64,000 nucleotides of DNA from Nocardioides turkmenicus (GTDB lineage Bacteria > Actinomycetota > Actinomycetes > Propionibacteriales > Nocardioidaceae). Under the pieces are notes generated by a model. That model searched no databases. It was given only the letters and a program-made list of their open reading frames with translations, and had not been told where the DNA came from. The position numbers and the translations under genes are program-made. This document shows, one piece after another, positions 10,360 to 16,327 of the stretch. Within the stretch, counting starts at the first letter, position 1. Every line of letters begins with the position of its first letter. The stretch lies in the NCBI RefSeq assembly GCF_011045035.1, contig NZ_JAALAA010000004.1, positions 186,001-250,000 on the forward strand. The letters are read 5' to 3'.

Positions 10360-12444
10360 CTACGTCGTCGTCGCCAGCACCAGCGGGCTCACCGACCCGG
10401 CGCCGGCGTCGAGCAGGGCGCGGGCGGCGAGGGTGACGGTCCAGCCGGTCGCGACGCGATCATCGACGAGCAGTACGTCGGCACCCGGTGGCACCTCGGC
10501 GTGGAGCGAGAAGCGGCGACCGACGGCGGCGACGCGCTGGGCCGAGTTGGAGGCGCCCTGGCCCGGGCCGACGTCGGGGTCGACGATGGCCCACGAGCCG
10601 AGCACGGGGACGCGGAGGTAGCGCGAGAGACCGTCGGCGAAGTCGCGGGTCAGGGTCGGGCGGGTCGCCGACTCGACGTAGACGATGCCGGCCACCCGGG
10701 GCTTCCAGTCGCCGAGGACCTCGACGACCGCCTTCACCAGCGGCACCGGGACCGGACCGTCCTGGGCGGGCTCGCGGAAGAGCTCGCGCAGCGCCTGGCC
10801 GTAACCGAGGTCGGTCAGCCTGGCGACCGCGCGGCCTTCGAGCGGCCCCTCCTTGATCTTGCCCTTGAGTGAGATGCCGAGCCGGTCGAGACCGGTGGGC
10901 CACATCTTCTTCGGCTCCACGACCACCCCGGGTCGAGCCAGCCGGGCTGACGCCTCCTCGACCGCCCCCTCGGACACCGTCGAGGTCACCGCGAAGCCGC
11001 CGCAGTTGTCGCACCGCCCGCAGTCGACGGCGCCGGGGTCGTCGAGCTGCTCGCGCAGGAACCGCATCCGGCACTGGTCGGTCGAGATGTAGGCGAGCAT
11101 CGCGTCCTGCTCGCGACGGCGCGCCTCGGCGACCCGGGCATAGCGCTCCGCGTCGTAGTCCCACGGGACTCCGGTCGCCTCCCAGCCGCCGCCGACCCGG
11201 CGGGCGGCGCCGTCGACATCGAGGACCTTGAGCATCTGCTCCAGGCGTGAGCGGGACAGGTCGACGTACGTCTCCAGCGCCTGCGTCGACAGCGCACGCC
11301 CCGCCTCGGACAGGACGCCCAGGGTCTGGCGCACCTGCTCCTCGCGCGGGAACGCCAGCGACGCGAAGTAGGCCCAGATGTCGCGGTCCTCGACACCGGG
11401 GAGCAGCACGACGGAGGCGTCTGAGGTGCCACGGCCGGCGCGGCCGACCTGCTGGTAGTAGGAGACCGGCGAGGAGGGGGCACCCATGTTGACCACGAAC
11501 CCGAGCGTCGCGTCGAAGCCCATCCCGAGCGCCGAGGTGGCCACCAGCGCCTTGATCTTCCCGGCGGCCAGCGACTCCTCGAGCTCGGCCCGCTCGGCCG
11601 CCTCGGTGCGTCCGGAGTAGGCAGCGACGTCGTGGCCTCGGGAGCGGAGGTAGTCGGCGATCTCCTCGGTCGCGGCGACGGTCAGGCAGTAGACGATGCC
11701 CGACCCGGGCTGCTCGGAGAGGTGGTCGGAGAGCCACGCCAGCCGCTGCTCGGGGGTCTTCAGCGAGACCACCGCGAGCCGCAGCGACTCCCGGTCCAGC
11801 GATCCCCGCAGCACCAGAACCCCCGACCCCATCTGCTCGGCGACGTCCGCGGTCACCCGGGAGTTGGCGGTGGCGGTCGTCGCGAGCACCGGGATCCCGT
11901 CGGGGAGGTCGGCCAGGAGCGTACGGATCCGGCGGTAGTCGGGTCGGAAGTCATGCCCCCAGTCGGAGATGCAGTGGGCCTCGTCGACCACCAGCAGGCC
12001 GCACTCGGCGGCCAGCCGCGGCAGCACCGCGTCACGGAACTTCGGGTTGTTGAGCCGCTCGGGGGAGACCAGCAGGACGTCGACCTCACCCGCATGGATG
12101 GCCTCCTCGATCGAGACCCAGTCCTCGGGGTTGGTCGAGTTGATCGTCACCGCCCGGATCCCGGCGCGCTGCGCGGCAGCGATCTGGTTGCGCATCAGCG
12201 CGAGCAGCGGCGAGACGATCACCGTCGGCCCGAGCCCGGCCTCGCGGAGCAGCAGCGTCGCGACGAAGTAGACCGCCGACTTCCCCCACCCGGTCTTCTG
12301 CACCACCAGCGCCCGGCGGCGCTCGACCGCCAGGGCCGAGATCGCCGACCACTGGTCCTCGCGCAGAGCCGCATCCGGGCGCCCCACCAGGGCGCGCAGA
12401 TGCGCCTCGGCACGAGAGCGTACGACGCCAGCGGGATCAGTCAT
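10360..12444 (-). CDS. RecQ-family helicase fused to phosphoribosyltransferase-like domain
   Basis: About 694 residues; I start at the ATG 12444 (MTDPAGVV) after AGGTGG. The helicase core has a Q-motif (REDQWSAI), Walker A (TGWGKS), DEAH box (VVDEAHCISDWGHDFRPDY), ATTAT, and motif VI QQVGRAGRG. A RecQ zinc-binding module follows (CRMRFLREQL then CGRCDNCGG), then a linker. The last about 180 residues look like a phosphoribosyltransferase fold with the PRPP-type loop VLLVDDRVATGWT. RecQ unwinds DNA in repair; the C-terminal domain is not part of standard RecQ and replaces the HRDC domain. It follows the ABC-F gene by 13 bases and is probably co-transcribed with it. Confidence 0.9.
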   Translation of the reverse strand: MTDPAGVVRSRAEAHLRALVGRPDAALREDQWSAISALAVERRRALVVQKTGWGKSAVYFVATLLLREAGLGPTVIVSPLLALMRNQIAAAQRAGIRAVTINSTNPEDWVSIEEAIHAGEVDVLLVSPERLNNPKFRDAVLPRLAAECGLLVVDEAHCISDWGHDFRPDYRRIRTLLADLPDGIPVLATTATANSRVTADVAEQMGSGVLVLRGSLDRESLRLAVVSLKTPEQRLAWLSDHLSEQPGSGIVYCLTVAATEEIADYLRSRGHDVAAYSGRTEAAERAELEESLAAGKIKALVATSALGMGFDATLGFVVNMGAPSSPVSYYQQVGRAGRGTSDASVVLLPGVEDRDIWAYFASLAFPREEQVRQTLGVLSEAGRALSTQALETYVDLSRSRLEQMLKVLDVDGAARRVGGGWEATGVPWDYDAERYARVAEARRREQDAMLAYISTDQCRMRFLREQLDDPGAVDCGRCDNCGGFAVTSTVSEGAVEEASARLARPGVVVEPKKMWPTGLDRLGISLKGKIKEGPLEGRAVARLTDLGYGQALRELFREPAQDGPVPVPLVKAVVEVLGDWKPRVAGIVYVESATRPTLTRDFADGLSRYLRVPVLGSWAIVDPDVGPGQGASNSAQRVAAVGRRFSLHAEVPPGADVLLVDDRVATGWTVTLAARALLDAGAGSVSPLVLATTT

Positions 12445-12457
12445 GACCACCTGTCTA

Positions 12458-14101
12458 TCAGGCACCTCCGACAGAGTGGCCCAGCGCCAACCGCGGCCAG
12501 TCCGAGAGGTCGGCCAGCATCTGCCGATCGTGAGTCGCCACCACCACAGCCGCAGATGTCGTACGCAACGCGACGGTCAGCTCGTCGACCAACCCGGCGG
12601 ACAGATGGTTGGTCGGCTCGTCCAGGATCAGCAGGTGCGGCCGCGAAGCCAGCCGCAGCGCCAGCTCGAGCCGCCGCTGCTGTCCCTGGGACAACCGCTC
12701 CGCGGGCGTACGCCGCGCCTCGGCGTCCATCAGCCCGGTCGATCGAAGCGACGAGGCCGCCCGTTCCGGCACCACCCCGTCGGCGACCAGCCGGCCACAG
12801 TGCTGCGCATAGATCTCGGCCGCGGTCAGCCCCGGCTCCCAGGCCGGCTCCTCCTGCCCGACGAGCGCGACCCGCGCCCCGGGCGAGACCCACACCGATC
12901 CCGTCGACGGAGCGAGCCCGCCGCCGAGCACCTGCAGCAGGGTCGACTTGCCCGCCCCGTTGGGACCGGTGACCAGCAGCCGGTCACCGGCATCGATCCC
13001 CAACGACACCGGCCCCGGCAGGCGGCCGGGAACACCGACGTCCTGACACCGCAGCAGCGTGCCTCCGACATCGGCCGGCAGCGCCGGGAACCGCAGCGTC
13101 ATCGGCGGCTCGGGCACGGTGATGCGGTGCGCCTCGAGCGCCGCGAGGTCACGGTTGAAGGAGCGCACCAGGCCGGGCGCCCGGGTCTGCCGCTGGTGCT
13201 TCCCGGTCCCCTTGGGCGGCCGCCAGCCGGTGCTGAGCCGGTCCTGGGCCGCCGAGACCGAGTCCTGGAGCCGGCGGTGCTCCTCCTGCTGCGCCGCGAA
13301 GTCCTGCTCCCAGCGCTCGCGGTCGCGACGCTTGCCCTCCTGCCAGCCCTGATAGCCGCCCGCGTACGTCCGGGCCCGGCCGTCCTCGCTCGGATCCAGG
13401 TCGAGGAACTCGACGCCGACGTCGCGGAGCAGCCGGCGGTCGTGGGACACCACGACGACCCCGCCGGCGTGCGAGCGGATCCGCTCGGTCAGGAACGCCA
13501 GCCCCGTGGCATCGAGGTGGTTGGTCGGCTCGTCGAGCACGAGGAGGTCGTGGTGCGCCCCGAGCAGACAGGCCAGCCGAACCCGGTAGCGCTGGCCGAC
13601 CGACAGCGTCGCCAGCTCCCGGGTGTGATCGGTGCACGCGCCGAGCGCCTCGAGGGCGATCTGCACCCTGCGGTCGGCGTCCCAGGCATCCAGCGTGGTC
13701 GCCTGCTCCAGCGCCGCGGCGTACGTCCCGGCGGAGTCGTTCGGGTCCTCCGACAGCGCCTGGGCCGCCTCGTCGAGCGCGCGGAGGGCGTCGTGCGACT
13801 CGGCCAGGGCGGCGGAGGTGAGGGTGCCGACGGTGTCCCCTGGACGTACGTCCAGGGCCTGCTGCGCGATCCCGAGGCTGCCGTGCCGCTGAACACGGCC
13901 GGAGTCGGGGACGAGGAGGCCGGCCAGGACATGGAGGAGTGTGGTCTTGCCGCGGCCGTTCTCGCCGACGATGGCCACGCGGGACCGGTTGACGGCGGAG
14001 ACGGTCACGGAGACGTTGCGCAGGACGGGACGGCCGCTACGGGTGACCGAGATGTCCTCGGCGCGCAGGTGGGCAGAGGTGTGGTGGGTCTGTACAGACA
14101 C
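12458..14101 (-). CDS. ABC-F ribosome-protection protein (antibiotic resistance type)
   Basis: A 547-residue protein with two ATPase cassettes and no membrane segments, the ABC-F layout. Walker A motifs are GENGRGKTT and GPNGAGKST; Walker [12 protein letters not shown] and [11 protein letters not shown]; signatures LSVGQ and LSQGQ. The interdomain linker is Arg/Lys-rich ([20 protein letters not shown]), like actinobacterial macrolide/lincosamide resistance ABC-F proteins that dislodge drug from the ribosome. The start is GTG 14101 with GGAAG nine bases upstream. About 100 bases upstream lies a short leader peptide containing MRLR plus hairpins, indicating drug-induced expression. Exact drug range cannot be told. 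Confidence 0.9.
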
Positions 14102-14153
14102 GAAAATGAACTTCCAGCTCGCGTACGGGAGCCGGGAGAGCGAGAGCAGCTAC

Positions 14154-14203
14154 CCGGCTATGGCCGGACAGCGGCGGGAGTATGCCTCGAAGCGCCGCCG
14201 TCA
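14154..14203 (-). promoter_or_regulatory. Leader hairpins between MRLR peptide and ABC-F gene
   Basis: Just after the leader peptide stop, CGGCGG can pair with CCGCCG (plus-strand 14172-14177 with 14195-14200), and a second hairpin is CCGGC-TATG-GCCGG (14154-14167). Such stems behind a stalling leader peptide commonly form alternative structures that expose or hide a terminator or ribosome site. Confidence 0.5.
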
Positions 14204-14245
14204 GGCGACGGAGCGCAGGCGCATGGAAGCGATTCCGAGGTGCAT
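14201..14245 (-). CDS. 14-residue leader peptide with MRLR stalling motif
   Basis: The peptide MHLGIASMRLRSVA starts at ATG 14245 with CTGGAG just upstream and stops at TGA 14201-14203, on the same strand as the ABC-F gene and about 100 bases ahead of it. It contains S-M-R-L-R. ErmD-type leaders carry SMRLR and the MsrA leader carries SMRLK, and Arg-Leu-Arg is the known minimal macrolide-dependent stalling motif. I infer that a macrolide-bound ribosome stalls on this peptide and switches the downstream hairpins so the ABC-F gene is expressed. Confidence 0.65.
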   Translation of the reverse strand: MHLGIASMRLRSVA

Positions 14246-14491
14246 GACTCCAGGATAAGCGGAGCGGAACCGCCCACGCGAACCGTTATTCACCTAGCGC
14301 GAAAACGACGCCGAGCCGGCGCTGTTGGTCCTCCCCCACGGGGACCCGCAGAACCGGCCCGGCGTCTCCAGTATGCGTCCAATCGCCGCACCGGCATAAC
14401 CACACGCCCGAATTCGTACTTTAGTTACCAAATGCGGTCGACGGCGCCGCCTTTGGAAGGACGGCGCCGCCGATTCCGGCATTGCGTCAGG

Positions 14492-16162
14492 TCAGTTCAC
14501 GGACACCGCGGTCCATGCCGCCTCGACGGCCTTGACCTCGGCGCTGGCGGCGCCGTAGAGGTCGGAGGCCGCCTTCACCGTCGCGTCGCGCGCGCCGGCG
14601 TAGTCGGTGGTCGAGGTGAAGTAGGTCGAGTTCGCGCGGAACCAGATCTTCTCGGCCTTGTCGCGACCGATGCCGGTGATCGTCGAGCCGTCGCAGGTCG
14701 TGCTCGAGTGCGTGACGCCACCGATCGTCTTCGTGCCCGAGCCCTCGGAGAGCAGGTAGAAGAAGTGGTTGCCGACGCCGCTGGAGTAGTGGACGTCGAG
14801 GCCACCGGTCGAGGACGACCAGCAGTTGACCGAGTTGCCGTCAGCGGAGGGGTTGTCCATCCGGCGCAGCGGGTCGCCGCCGTCGAGGATGAAGGACTCG
14901 CCGATCAGGTAGTCGCCCTTGTCCTCGGCGTTGTTCGCGTAGAACTCGACCGCCGTCCCGAAGATGTCCGAGGTCGACTCGTTGAGGCCGCCGGACTCAC
15001 CGGAGTACTCCAGGCCCGAGGTGTTCTCGGTGACGCCGTGGGTCATCTCGTGGCCCGCGACGTCGAGCGAGACGAGCGGTCCGTAGCCGACACCGTCGCC
15101 GTCGCCGTACGTCATCTTCTGGCCGTCCCAGAAGGCGTTGACGTAGTTCTTGCCGTAGTGGACGCGGTTGAACGAGCCCGAGCCGTCGCCGAAGATGCCG
15201 TCGCGGCCGTGGACGTTCTTGAAGTAGTCCCAGGTGACGTTGGTGCCGTACTGGGCGTCGGCGGCTGCGGTGTCCCGGTCGGTGTTGGAGCCGTTGCCGA
15301 AGGTCGTGGTCGGGCTGGTGACCACGGTGCCAGCCGAACAGCCGAACCCGAACAGCTGGCACAGCAGGCTGTCCTCGGCGTTGTTCATGTCCGTCGTGTA
15401 GGTGCCGCCACGGGTCTCGTCACGCAGCTCGTACGTCGAGCCGTTCTGCTTCACCTGCAGCGGGACGGTCCCGGAGTAGAGGGTGTTGCCCTCGCCGTCG
15501 ATGGTGTGGATGCCCTCGACCCGGCGCAGCACCTTGCCGGTGGCCGCGTCGACATAGGTCGCGAGGCGGGACGGCGTGCCGTCGGCCTGCTTGCCCTTGG
15601 TGGTCACCCGCCACGCCAGCGTCGGGGAGCCGTCGACCGCGTCGACGACGAGCTCGGGGGCGTACTTCTTGTCGGTCTCGAGACCGCTGATCTTCTTGGT
15701 GACAGCGTCGAGGGTCAGCGCGGCCTTGGTCGCCGCCGCCTCGGTGACGGTCGGCTTCACCGAGAGGTCGAGCACCTCGGTCAGCCCCTGCGAGACGGAG
15801 GTCAGGGCACCGGCCTTGCTCCGGTGGGCGACCAGGTCGCCGCCGACGACCTCGAGGCCCTGGTAGGTCCGGTTCATCCGTACGTGGGTGGCCCCGTTGG
15901 CGTCCTTCAGCGTCACCACCGGCTCGAGCTCCTGGCCCGCGCCGACCTTCCAGGTCGACGGCCTGCTCGTCAGCGCCTTGATGGCGTCGTCCGCGATCGA
16001 CTCGTCGTCGACGATCTTCTGGGCAGCGAGAGTGACTGGCGTGATGCTGGAGGCAGAGCCGGTGGCGGGCGTGGCGCCGGCCGGGCTTCCGAAGGAGGCG
16101 ATGAAGGCAGTTCCTGCAACAGCGGCTGCGGTTGCCGCTCCCGCTACTCGGGCGATACGCAT
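14492..16162 (-). CDS. Secreted M4 (thermolysin-like) metallopeptidase
   Basis: About 556 residues; start at ATG 16162 behind GAGGAGAACC. A signal peptide (MRIARVAGAATAAAVAGTAF) is followed by a long propeptide of the FTP/PepSY kind (about 30-200), then the catalytic domain. The zinc site is H371-E-M-T-H with GGLNESTSD about 20 residues on, supplying the third ligand Glu. Extracellular protein degradation after autoprocessing is the known family role. It lies downstream of the M13 peptidase on the same strand, separated by 165 bases in which I see no clear operator. Confidence 0.95.
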   Translation of the reverse strand: MRIARVAGAATAAAVAGTAFIASFGSPAGATPATGSASSITPVTLAAQKIVDDESIADDAIKALTSRPSTWKVGAGQELEPVVTLKDANGATHVRMNRTYQGLEVVGGDLVAHRSKAGALTSVSQGLTEVLDLSVKPTVTEAAATKAALTLDAVTKKISGLETDKKYAPELVVDAVDGSPTLAWRVTTKGKQADGTPSRLATYVDAATGKVLRRVEGIHTIDGEGNTLYSGTVPLQVKQNGSTYELRDETRGGTYTTDMNNAEDSLLCQLFGFGCSAGTVVTSPTTTFGNGSNTDRDTAAADAQYGTNVTWDYFKNVHGRDGIFGDGSGSFNRVHYGKNYVNAFWDGQKMTYGDGDGVGYGPLVSLDVAGHEMTHGVTENTSGLEYSGESGGLNESTSDIFGTAVEFYANNAEDKGDYLIGESFILDGGDPLRRMDNPSADGNSVNCWSSSTGGLDVHYSSGVGNHFFYLLSEGSGTKTIGGVTHSSTTCDGSTITGIGRDKAEKIWFRANSTYFTSTTDYAGARDATVKAASDLYGAASAEVKAVEAAWTAVSVN

Positions 16163-16327
16163 CGTGGGGTTCTCCTCGATTGTGGGGACCAGGATTGACG
16201 GAATCCTTGCACCAGAATCGAGGCCGCGTTGAAACAAGTTCTTGCAATGCGGCTTTATGAAGAACCTTCCCCGCGTAACTCCTTTACGTTGTTATCGAAT
16301 ATTAACCAATACCCCTACCCGCACGGA

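Follow-up and report, generated by a model that had tools for sequence, protein, structure and literature searches.

The ABC-F locus and its leader

The window, by which we mean the whole stretch of 64,000 nucleotides of Nocardioides turkmenicus DNA analysed here, contains an ABC-F gene on the minus strand. Its product scores best against the NCBIfam family TlrC/CarA/OleB/SrmB (ARE4), although with 328 bits it stays below the family cut-off of 800. For this reason the gene is only a predicted ribosome-protection gene, whose resistance function is derived from the family. Judging from the translations, the gene that follows the ABC-F gene codes for a RecQ-like helicase, and upstream of the locus there is a gene for an M4-type protease.

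Ahead of the ABC-F gene we found a 14-codon ORF, MHLGIASMRLRSVA, on the same strand. Its ATG occupies 14245-14243 and its TGA stop codon 14203-14201 (DNA ATGCACCTCGGAATCGCTTCCATGCGCCTGCGCTCCGTCGCCTGA, minus strand, 14245 to 14201), leaving 99 nt to the GTG of the ABC-F gene. The initial annotation had placed such an ORF about 100 bases before the gene, with the stems CGGCGG/CCGCCG and CCGGC/GCCGG in between, and all of these are present. The locus thus has the layout of RLR-type leaders: a short ORF with an M-R/K-L-R/K motif upstream of a macrolide-resistance gene (here predicted from the family) and alternative RNA folds between the two. Rfam yielded nothing above its gathering score in 14500 down to 13900. 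The features are as follows, in the direction of transcription:

14252-14257, minus strand: TANNNT -10 hexamer TATCCT, with the A of the leader ATG as predicted transcription start (from the sequence and the geometry in relatives)
14246-14251, minus strand: 6-nt spacer GGAGTC, containing the GGAG (14251-14248) once read as a ribosome site (from the sequence)
14201-14245, minus strand: leader ORF with stop TGA (sequence, motif conservation, leaderless-ORF scan)
14213-14221, minus strand: Arg-Leu-Arg codons, predicted arrest site, exactly 3 codons 5' of the stop (offset kept in relatives; ErmDL precedent)
14204-14210, minus strand: element 0, the final leader codons, pairing with element 1 around the stop codon (covariation, stop hairpin)
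14193-14200, minus strand: element 1, CGGCGGCG (covariation of both folds)
14162-14177, minus strand: element 2, CCGCCGCTGTCCGGCC, partner of 1 (ON) or 3 (OFF) (covariation of both folds)
14153-14159, minus strand: element 3, AGCCGGG, partner of 2 (OFF) or 4 (ON) (covariation of both folds)
14129-14136, minus strand: element 4, CCCGGCTC, partner of 3 (ON) or 5 (OFF) (covariation, terminator scan)
14111-14120, minus strand: element 5, GAGCTGGAAG, including the ABC-F ribosome site; a T-rich stretch comes after the 4:5 hairpin (covariation, terminator scan)
12458-14101, minus strand: ABC-F gene, 547 aa, GTG start at 14101 (ORF, NCBIfam)

The leader peptide and its start in related genomes

Homologues were collected from genome contigs with six peptide patterns of the query, which biases the sample to close relatives. 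The search gave 79 loci, 75 of them with a homologue in the full-length range (L032-L106), and orthologues among the family genomes were additional. A partial gene (L007), paralogues of about 40% identity (L010-L031) and weak or partial hits (L107-L110) were left out of the counts. Leader peptides with G-I/T-A-S-M-R-L-R endings and near variants occur in Nocardioides, Brevibacterium, Microbacterium, Kribbia and Paractinoplanes, and K-L-R, K-L-W or K-P-W forms in Nigerium, Austwickia, Nocardia, Kocuria, Rothia, Dietzia, Mobilicoccus and others. A search for the same small ORF upstream of ABC-F homologues in Nocardioidaceae had been proposed as a check, and the ORF does recur in several actinobacterial families.

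A strict motif near the stop codon, I/T-A-x-M/L-R/K-L/I/P-R/W, was found in 21 of 75 upstream regions compared to a mean of 0.025 and a maximum of 1 in 40 rounds of shuffling and none on the reverse strand; this pattern had been widened post hoc, with the data already seen. The plain [ML]RLR motif is present in 10 of the 75 regions (shuffles: mean 0.25, maximum 2; reverse strand: 1). Across 16 leaders RLR is spelled with 10 different nucleotide triplets, which shows selection on the peptide. In all 47 leaders of the window's class [R/K]-x-[R/W] is followed by exactly 3 codons and then the stop codon. The motif itself varies: KPW is found 17 times, RLR 16 times, KLW seven times and KLR twice, while RIR, RPR, KVR, RTR and RPW occur once each.

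Short aromatic leaders ending at the stop codon, such as MHLYFL, MQYLFFL and MQYYFFI, were assigned to 32 other loci, initially by eye; the aromatic leaders of L008 and L047 deviate at the end. No leader of either class was found in three of the 75 loci (L066, L096, L097). We placed 78 ABC-F proteins on a quick maximum-likelihood tree, the product of a short search and with some long branches. On it the ABC-Fs with aromatic leaders make up one side of a branch (31 rows, SH-aLRT 93). The aromatic leaders belong to a sister ABC-F clade and not to the window's class. They resemble MsrDL (MYLIFM), which precedes streptococcal msrD and arrests at its stop codon (PMC10314930), in being short and ending at the stop, while few residues are alike and the actinobacterial leaders show leaderless geometry. 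The window leader is not of this MsrDL type, having 3 codons after RLR. Arg-type and Trp-type leaders are interleaved on the same tree: parsimony gives 7 changes of the third motif residue, and the well-supported branches alone force at least 4 (Trp group) or at least 5 (Arg group).

Two resistance genes preceded by comparable leaders, msr(A) and msr(C), are ABC-F genes. In Firmicutes MRLR/K leaders are known before msr(A), msr(C), mef and erm genes, with the ErmD/ErmK, Mef(E), Msr(A) and Msr(C) leader peptides reading MTHSMRLR.., MTASMRLR, MTASMRLK and MTASMKLR.. (PMC4335068). The M-R/K-L-R/K arrest motif is common to these and the window leader, whereas no discernible RNA is shared, mef(E)L differs in using AGGAGG as its ribosome site, and the peptides listed in that paper show no fixed 3-codon tail (PMC4335068). 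The stretch MHLGIAS had been taken as an extension peculiar to this case. This does not hold, since relatives conserve G-I/T-A-S/F, GTAF stands in the ermX leader, and the Mef(E) and Msr(A) leaders read MTASMRLR/K.

The start of the leader shows a second conserved property. The hexamer TATCCT ends 6 nt before the leader ATG. By a simple start rule, 61 of 69 distinct leaders have a TANNNT with a spacing of exactly 6 or 7 nt to the start codon. Once in-frame upstream starts are allowed this rises to 77 of 79; at spacers of 0-5, 8 and 9 nt there are none, at 10 four and at 12 three. As a control, only 10 of 775 other ATG/GTG codons in the same regions have TANNNT at that spacing. Concerning the two exceptions, L081 fits with the next in-frame ATG, and L105 is missing one base at the conserved start, which is out of frame there. 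We also scanned for leaderless ORFs without regard to the peptide, requiring RTG, TANNNT at 6-7 nt and a short ORF. Such an ORF was present in 71 of 75 upstream regions (100 shuffles: mean 2.09, maximum 5; reverse strand 2; inside the gene 1), and in 70 of these 71 regions, aromatic leaders included, it is the one that had been assigned. The 79 leaders start with ATG (54) or GTG (25) and never with TTG, which matches the rule for mycobacterial leaderless starts, where RTG at +1 suffices (PMC4633059); TANNNT motifs have been described in mycobacterial transcription initiation (PMC4128351).

The leader had been credited with a ribosome site of its own. The only candidate is GGAG, 2 nt from the ATG, a spacing not common to the relatives: GGAG this near to the start is present in five of 79 leaders (the window, L032, L033, L060 and L062). 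These are also all the leaders with any Shine-Dalgarno-like tetramer within 14 nt of the start (5/79), and in none does one end at least 4 nt before it. As the TANNNT geometry is common and such tetramers are rare and too close, GGAG is most likely not a ribosome site and we rejected it as such. In view of the frequency of the leaderless arrangement relative to shuffles, a leaderless mRNA probably begins with the leader ORF, as far as geometry (RTG start, -10 box ending 6-7 nt upstream) can indicate.

The predicted RNA attenuator and its possible action

Five alternating segments 3' of the stop codon are common to Arg-type and Trp-type loci. We compared the two folds they allow in 44 distinct sequences. 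In the OFF fold (0:1, 2:3, 4:5) 87.8% of cells are paired with a covariation of 0.197 vs 0.142 in shuffled alignments; in the ON fold (1:2, 3:4) 93.9% are paired with a covariation of 0.199 vs 0.126. For neither fold did any of 500 shuffles reach the score, and sliding the partners by 1-3 columns lowered pairing from 88-94% to at most 52%. Pairs changed on both sides number 9 in the OFF fold (6.1 in shuffles, 19 of 500 as high) and 7 in the ON fold (3.7, 5 of 500). For further pair types there is no excess over shuffles (OFF 22 vs 22.7; ON 15 vs 13.6). Many of the double changes stem from five near-identical Rothia loci; a G-C/A-U exchange at columns 92-124 is also seen in Brevibacterium and Dietzia. 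By comparison of relatives, covariation thus supports two mutually exclusive folds of the predicted attenuator.

Helix 0:1, which carries the stop codon in its loop, has a mean length of 6.47 bp in 36 distinct loci vs 3.96 in shuffles. In the aromatic class the same test gave 3.6, slightly above the shuffled mean of 2.86 and maximum of 3.48. Upstream of the 32 aromatic-class genes the attenuator model found no match at E 1 or better, which accords with arrest at the stop codon as expected for these leaders. We also calculated equilibrium folding with the leader covered or not for 40 of the 47 loci, leaving out L064 and six Rothia loci in which element 4 was not matched. Accessibility of the ribosome site went up in 14 and down in 10, showing no consistent trend. 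For the window itself the unpaired fraction of the ribosome site changes from 0.00 to 0.39 when the leader is removed or covered.

We consider it likely that the leader senses drugs, forms the very 5' end of a leaderless mRNA, and controls the ABC-F gene by attenuation. Comparison of sequences shows the peptide to be conserved and its stop distance to be exact at ABC-F loci, and it reveals the leaderless geometry of the promoter as well as the two mutually exclusive folds; the drug that induces, the arrest, the sequence of folding events and the action of helix 4:5 on translation or as a terminator are our deductions. Transcription would begin at the leader ATG or within one base of it, and 70S ribosomes would load there. 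If no drug is present, the ribosome would reach the stop codon and cover element 1, allowing helix 2:3 to form; element 4 would then pair with element 5 and hide the ABC-F ribosome site. Afterwards helix 0:1, whose loop holds the stop codon, would keep element 1 off element 2. When a macrolide occupies the exit tunnel, translation would arrest 15 nt upstream of the stop codon, the Leu of R-L-R being in the P site. The ribosome would then cover element 0 and leave element 1 free, so that helices 1:2 and 3:4 form; this would release element 5 and allow synthesis of the ABC-F protein. Arrest with the Leu of RLR in the P site has been described for ErmDL (PMC8298421). The 3-codon tail fits such a mechanism: arrest at the motif places the ribosome over segment 0, leaving segment 1 free, while a ribosome at the stop codon covers segment 1.

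Because of the T-rich tail of the window's 4:5 hairpin, transcription attenuation could apply as well. One would then have a classical leader in the style of ErmK or Mef(E), with GGAG as its own Shine-Dalgarno sequence and the 4:5 hairpin as an intrinsic terminator. A terminator-like site does lie at 14135-14114, followed by AAGTTCATTT (1 in the window vs a mean of 0.3 in shuffles), and the known mef(E) MRLR leaders act by transcription attenuation (PMC4335068). A T-rich stretch (at least 5 T in 8 bases) follows element 4 in 10 of 41 relatives examined, the window included and six loci without a recognised element 4 excluded, but is absent from the other 31. The 2-nt distance of GGAG and the nearly invariant TANNNT spacing in leaders that share no common Shine-Dalgarno sequence likewise speak against a classical leader, which we regard as improbable.

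Far less credible still is the explanation that promoter and RNA fold are what is conserved, the peptide being incidental and control being exerted by a WhiB7-type activator and RNA structure alone. In 72 predicted promoters we observed an AT-rich peak upstream of the -35 area (0.64-0.65 at the top, 0.17-0.47 at most other upstream positions), and an AT-rich element just upstream of -35 is characteristic of WhiB7 sites; three WhiB proteins with RGRP AT-hooks are encoded in the window's genome. An incidental peptide is, however, at odds with the maintenance of RLR through its varied spellings, the fixed stop distance, the absence of TTG starts and the matching peptide in the ermX leader. Finally, a lone 14-codon ORF with RLR would be unremarkable in a G+C-rich genome, but a chance ORF is refuted by the conservation seen in the motif, the stop distance, the stop hairpin and the leaderless-ORF scan, and we give it practically no weight.

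Returning to a drug-sensing leader as the preferred reading, the proposal of the initial annotation that the same type of sensor precedes an actinomycete ABC-F gene appears right in kind, given the comparative evidence of peptide, RLR spellings and alternating stems. It is wrong in two details, the ribosome site and the supposed extension.

Similar cassettes before erm and exporter genes

The peptide of the ErmX leader served as a further query with its first 15 residues. These are present on 13 plasmids of Corynebacterium, Trueperella, Glutamicibacter and other hosts, identical in 11 and with one difference in two; one plasmid annotates the ErmX-type peptide as erythromycin resistance leader peptide. 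The ErmX leader (MLISGTAFLRLR[S/T]NR-stop) contains G-T-A-F-L-R-L-R and then exactly 3 codons to the stop, and the window leader conforms to the same G-[I/T]-A-x-[M/L]-R-L-R form. In two ermX loci (L113 and L114) a TATAAT, which is a TANNNT, ends 7 nt before the ATG, the same geometry as in ABC-F leaders. The ermX stop codon lies within a CCGC/GCGG hairpin like the ABC-F stop hairpin, and the downstream segments CCGGTCC, GCCGGGCGG and ATGCCCGGCTCC and the ribosome site parallel the ABC-F attenuator; the CCGGGCGG / ATGCCCGGCTCC segments are shared with this attenuator type. A covariance model built from ABC-F loci alone matches both ermX leader regions (E 1.6e-5 in L113 and 0.0066 in L114), so the ErmX-type cassette apparently has the same RNA architecture. 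The ermX cassette is plasmid-borne and controls a 23S rRNA methyltransferase, whereas the window's is chromosomal and precedes an ABC-F gene.

A leader-first search of 394 class genomes with a degenerate DNA pattern for G-I/T-A-S/F-M-R-L-R matched only two, the window's own genome and L112, the latter antisense to an S1-domain-like reading frame and taken as chance. This pattern was too rigid and we therefore used the RNA model, which gave 35 matches in 33 of the 394 genomes. Thirty match loci were classed by their downstream genes, 10 of whose proteins were compared to NCBIfam and the others named by reading the sequence. Six precede an ABC-F gene, seven an Erm gene and eight an MFS exporter gene. 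The remaining nine (L127, L130, L134, L135, L138, L141-L144) have no such gene after them and were taken as chance matches. Three of the six ABC-F matches are training loci, namely L118 (the window), L120 (the L003 locus) and L116 (identical to L034); L115, L117 and L119 are new. One of the five matches outside the 30, in genome G353, lies just before an erm gene found later (L170). Among the 10 proteins, five Erm proteins exceed the broad Erm cut-off, two ABC-Fs, one LmrA-like and one EmrB-like exporter stay below cut-offs, and L124 has no family at E 1e-30. Leaderless geometry is seen in 18 of the 21 ABC-F, Erm and MFS loci, the exceptions being L125, L126 and L131.

Starting from the best-scoring 30 erm loci of the class, we found a leaderless short ORF in 13 (shuffled mean 0.39, maximum 3) and none in the other 17. 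Their leader peptides include MCCFACFTRIRRS, MGSGAFFVAFFVRLRRA and MTASMRLRTA. Eleven of the 13 match the model at E 0.0013 or better, several of them being loci already found. One erm gene belongs to the window's own genome (G000:C3:101915-102634); its leader is MGNCCMTMFVRIRRR, with TAGCGT 7 nt before the ATG and a model match at E 0.0012. In the erm leaders compared, R-x-R is followed by 2 codons in 12 cases, by 3 in L126 and ermX and by 1 in L121. In the seven of eight exporter loci with a clear leader (L131 has none) the motif never stands 3 codons before the stop, and R/K-x-R/K/W is absent in six. The 3-codon distance is therefore no general rule for the cassette. Leaders of erm and exporter genes, as compared here, share the promoter geometry and much of the RNA, but not the exact peptide rule. 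RNAalifold applied to 17 erm, MFS and ermX attenuators showed hardly any covariation (term +0.4; double changes in a single pair), and in an alignment-free helix count 9 to 12 of these 17 loci, depending on the helix, exceed their own shuffles by more than 1 bp, a modest excess. The five-helix model, which appears well supported for the ABC-F set, is for this reason only suggestive here.

Other known leaders differ from that of the window. Streptomyces ARE5 genes (lmrC; are5sc with the leader MLV; tiaA with MVGDDDISG) are likewise ABC-F genes controlled by an upstream ORF, but the accounts available describe a response to drugs acting at the peptidyl transferase center and not to erythromycin. 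The are5sc and tiaA leaders, which are other peptides, arrest at the start codon with a lincosamide, streptogramin A or pleuromutilin (PMC12421871, PMC8546547). Leaders have further been described for CplR and VmlR, while for Ard1 no conserved upstream ORF was predictable according to the same report (PMC10201436). Mycobacterial leaderless cysteine-rich short ORFs are attenuators too, yet they sense an amino acid and not a drug (PMC4633059). Within the open-access literature that was searched and read, we found no account of actinobacterial ABC-F genes preceded by an MRLR leader, nor of leaderless macrolide leaders or a shared leader-attenuator cassette. What our comparisons add to a known kind of predicted drug-sensing leader is the leaderless start, the stop-codon hairpin and the repeatedly exchanged arrest residue.

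The site of this Arg/Trp exchange corresponds to Arg8 of ErmDL, where a change to Trp relieves arrest by telithromycin, while single Ala changes of the motif arginines matter little for erythromycin (PMC8298421). By analogy, natural Trp leaders may differ in drug selectivity, and the effect of Arg8-to-Trp makes them a ready test of it. A wider proposal, which we put forward tentatively and with some doubt, is that of a leaderless, interchangeable drug-sensor cassette common to Actinobacteria. It would control no fewer than three unrelated types of resistance gene, those for ABC-F proteins, Erm and MFS exporters. In its ABC-F branch, recurrent swaps between Arg and Trp at the A-site residue might tune the motif: leaders with R-L-R would read ketolides and macrolides, and K-L/P-W would be a new, ketolide-blind arrest class selective for cladinose-bearing (or other) drugs.

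Macrolide-sensing leaders are known in detail from few Firmicute examples. The 47 natural variants keep gene family, RNA switch and stop distance constant while the arrest motif varies, with Arg/Trp flips at the very residue tied to telithromycin arrest in ErmDL (PMC8298421), which makes the relation between motif and drug directly testable. A similar predicted sensor cassette stands before other kinds of resistance gene in related bacteria, including one elsewhere in the window's genome. These observations suggest that leaderless mRNAs may host antibiotic-responsive attenuators, and that the plasmid-borne ermX switch is tied to the chromosomal cassette.

Features around the ABC-F locus and variant leaders

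Two further features were noted near the ABC-F gene and its upstream M4-type protease gene:
14443-14468: inverted repeat directly 3' of the protease gene
12443-16198, + strand: open frame of 1251 aa, on the strand opposite the ABC-F gene and the protease gene

The inverted repeat is perhaps the terminator of the protease gene; a weak Rfam match at the same position scored below the gathering score and was taken as spurious. The long antisense frame was taken to be an artefact of high G+C content. Among the ABC-F homologues, one base is absent after the conserved leader start in Brevibacterium aurantiacum (L105), placing the RLR peptide out of frame, which reflects either leader loss or a sequencing error. 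Leaders from Lentzea (L086, L087, L089-L091) end C-terminally in GYGVFYL; within the MsrDL-like class of the sister ABC-F clade they are a longer aromatic variant.

Paralogues, WhiB proteins and exporters

Other short uORFs precede two ABC-F paralogues of the window's genome (G000):
L152 (G000:C1): MITKR, TANNNT box upstream, spacer 9 nt
L153 (G000:C11): MGTLK, TANNNT box upstream, spacer 8 nt

Three WhiB proteins of this genome (L148, L149, L150) carry the RGRP AT-hook, which is also borne by WhiB7. Leaderless leaders of a different kind, with AAVTRT[L/P/S]R or AAVTRALR as their last residues before the stop, were found before LmrA-like MFS exporters (L122, L123, L128, L133 and L140; family tested for L128 only), each with a similar attenuator behind it. 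These AAVTR-type leaders possibly act as a lincosamide sensor.

Related leaders at erm genes

The leader of L155, an erm gene from the same class as the window's genome, is MTASMRLRTA and matches the Mef(E) leader of streptococci identically over 8 residues, but this locus gives no match to the attenuator model, which was derived from ABC-F loci only. In the window's own genome an erm gene (L184, G000:C3:101915-102634) is preceded by a leaderless leader, MGNCCMTMFVRIRRR, and an attenuator, both of the same kind as those of the ABC-F gene. Two resistance genes of this genome, ABC-F and erm, therefore appear to be under parallel sensors.
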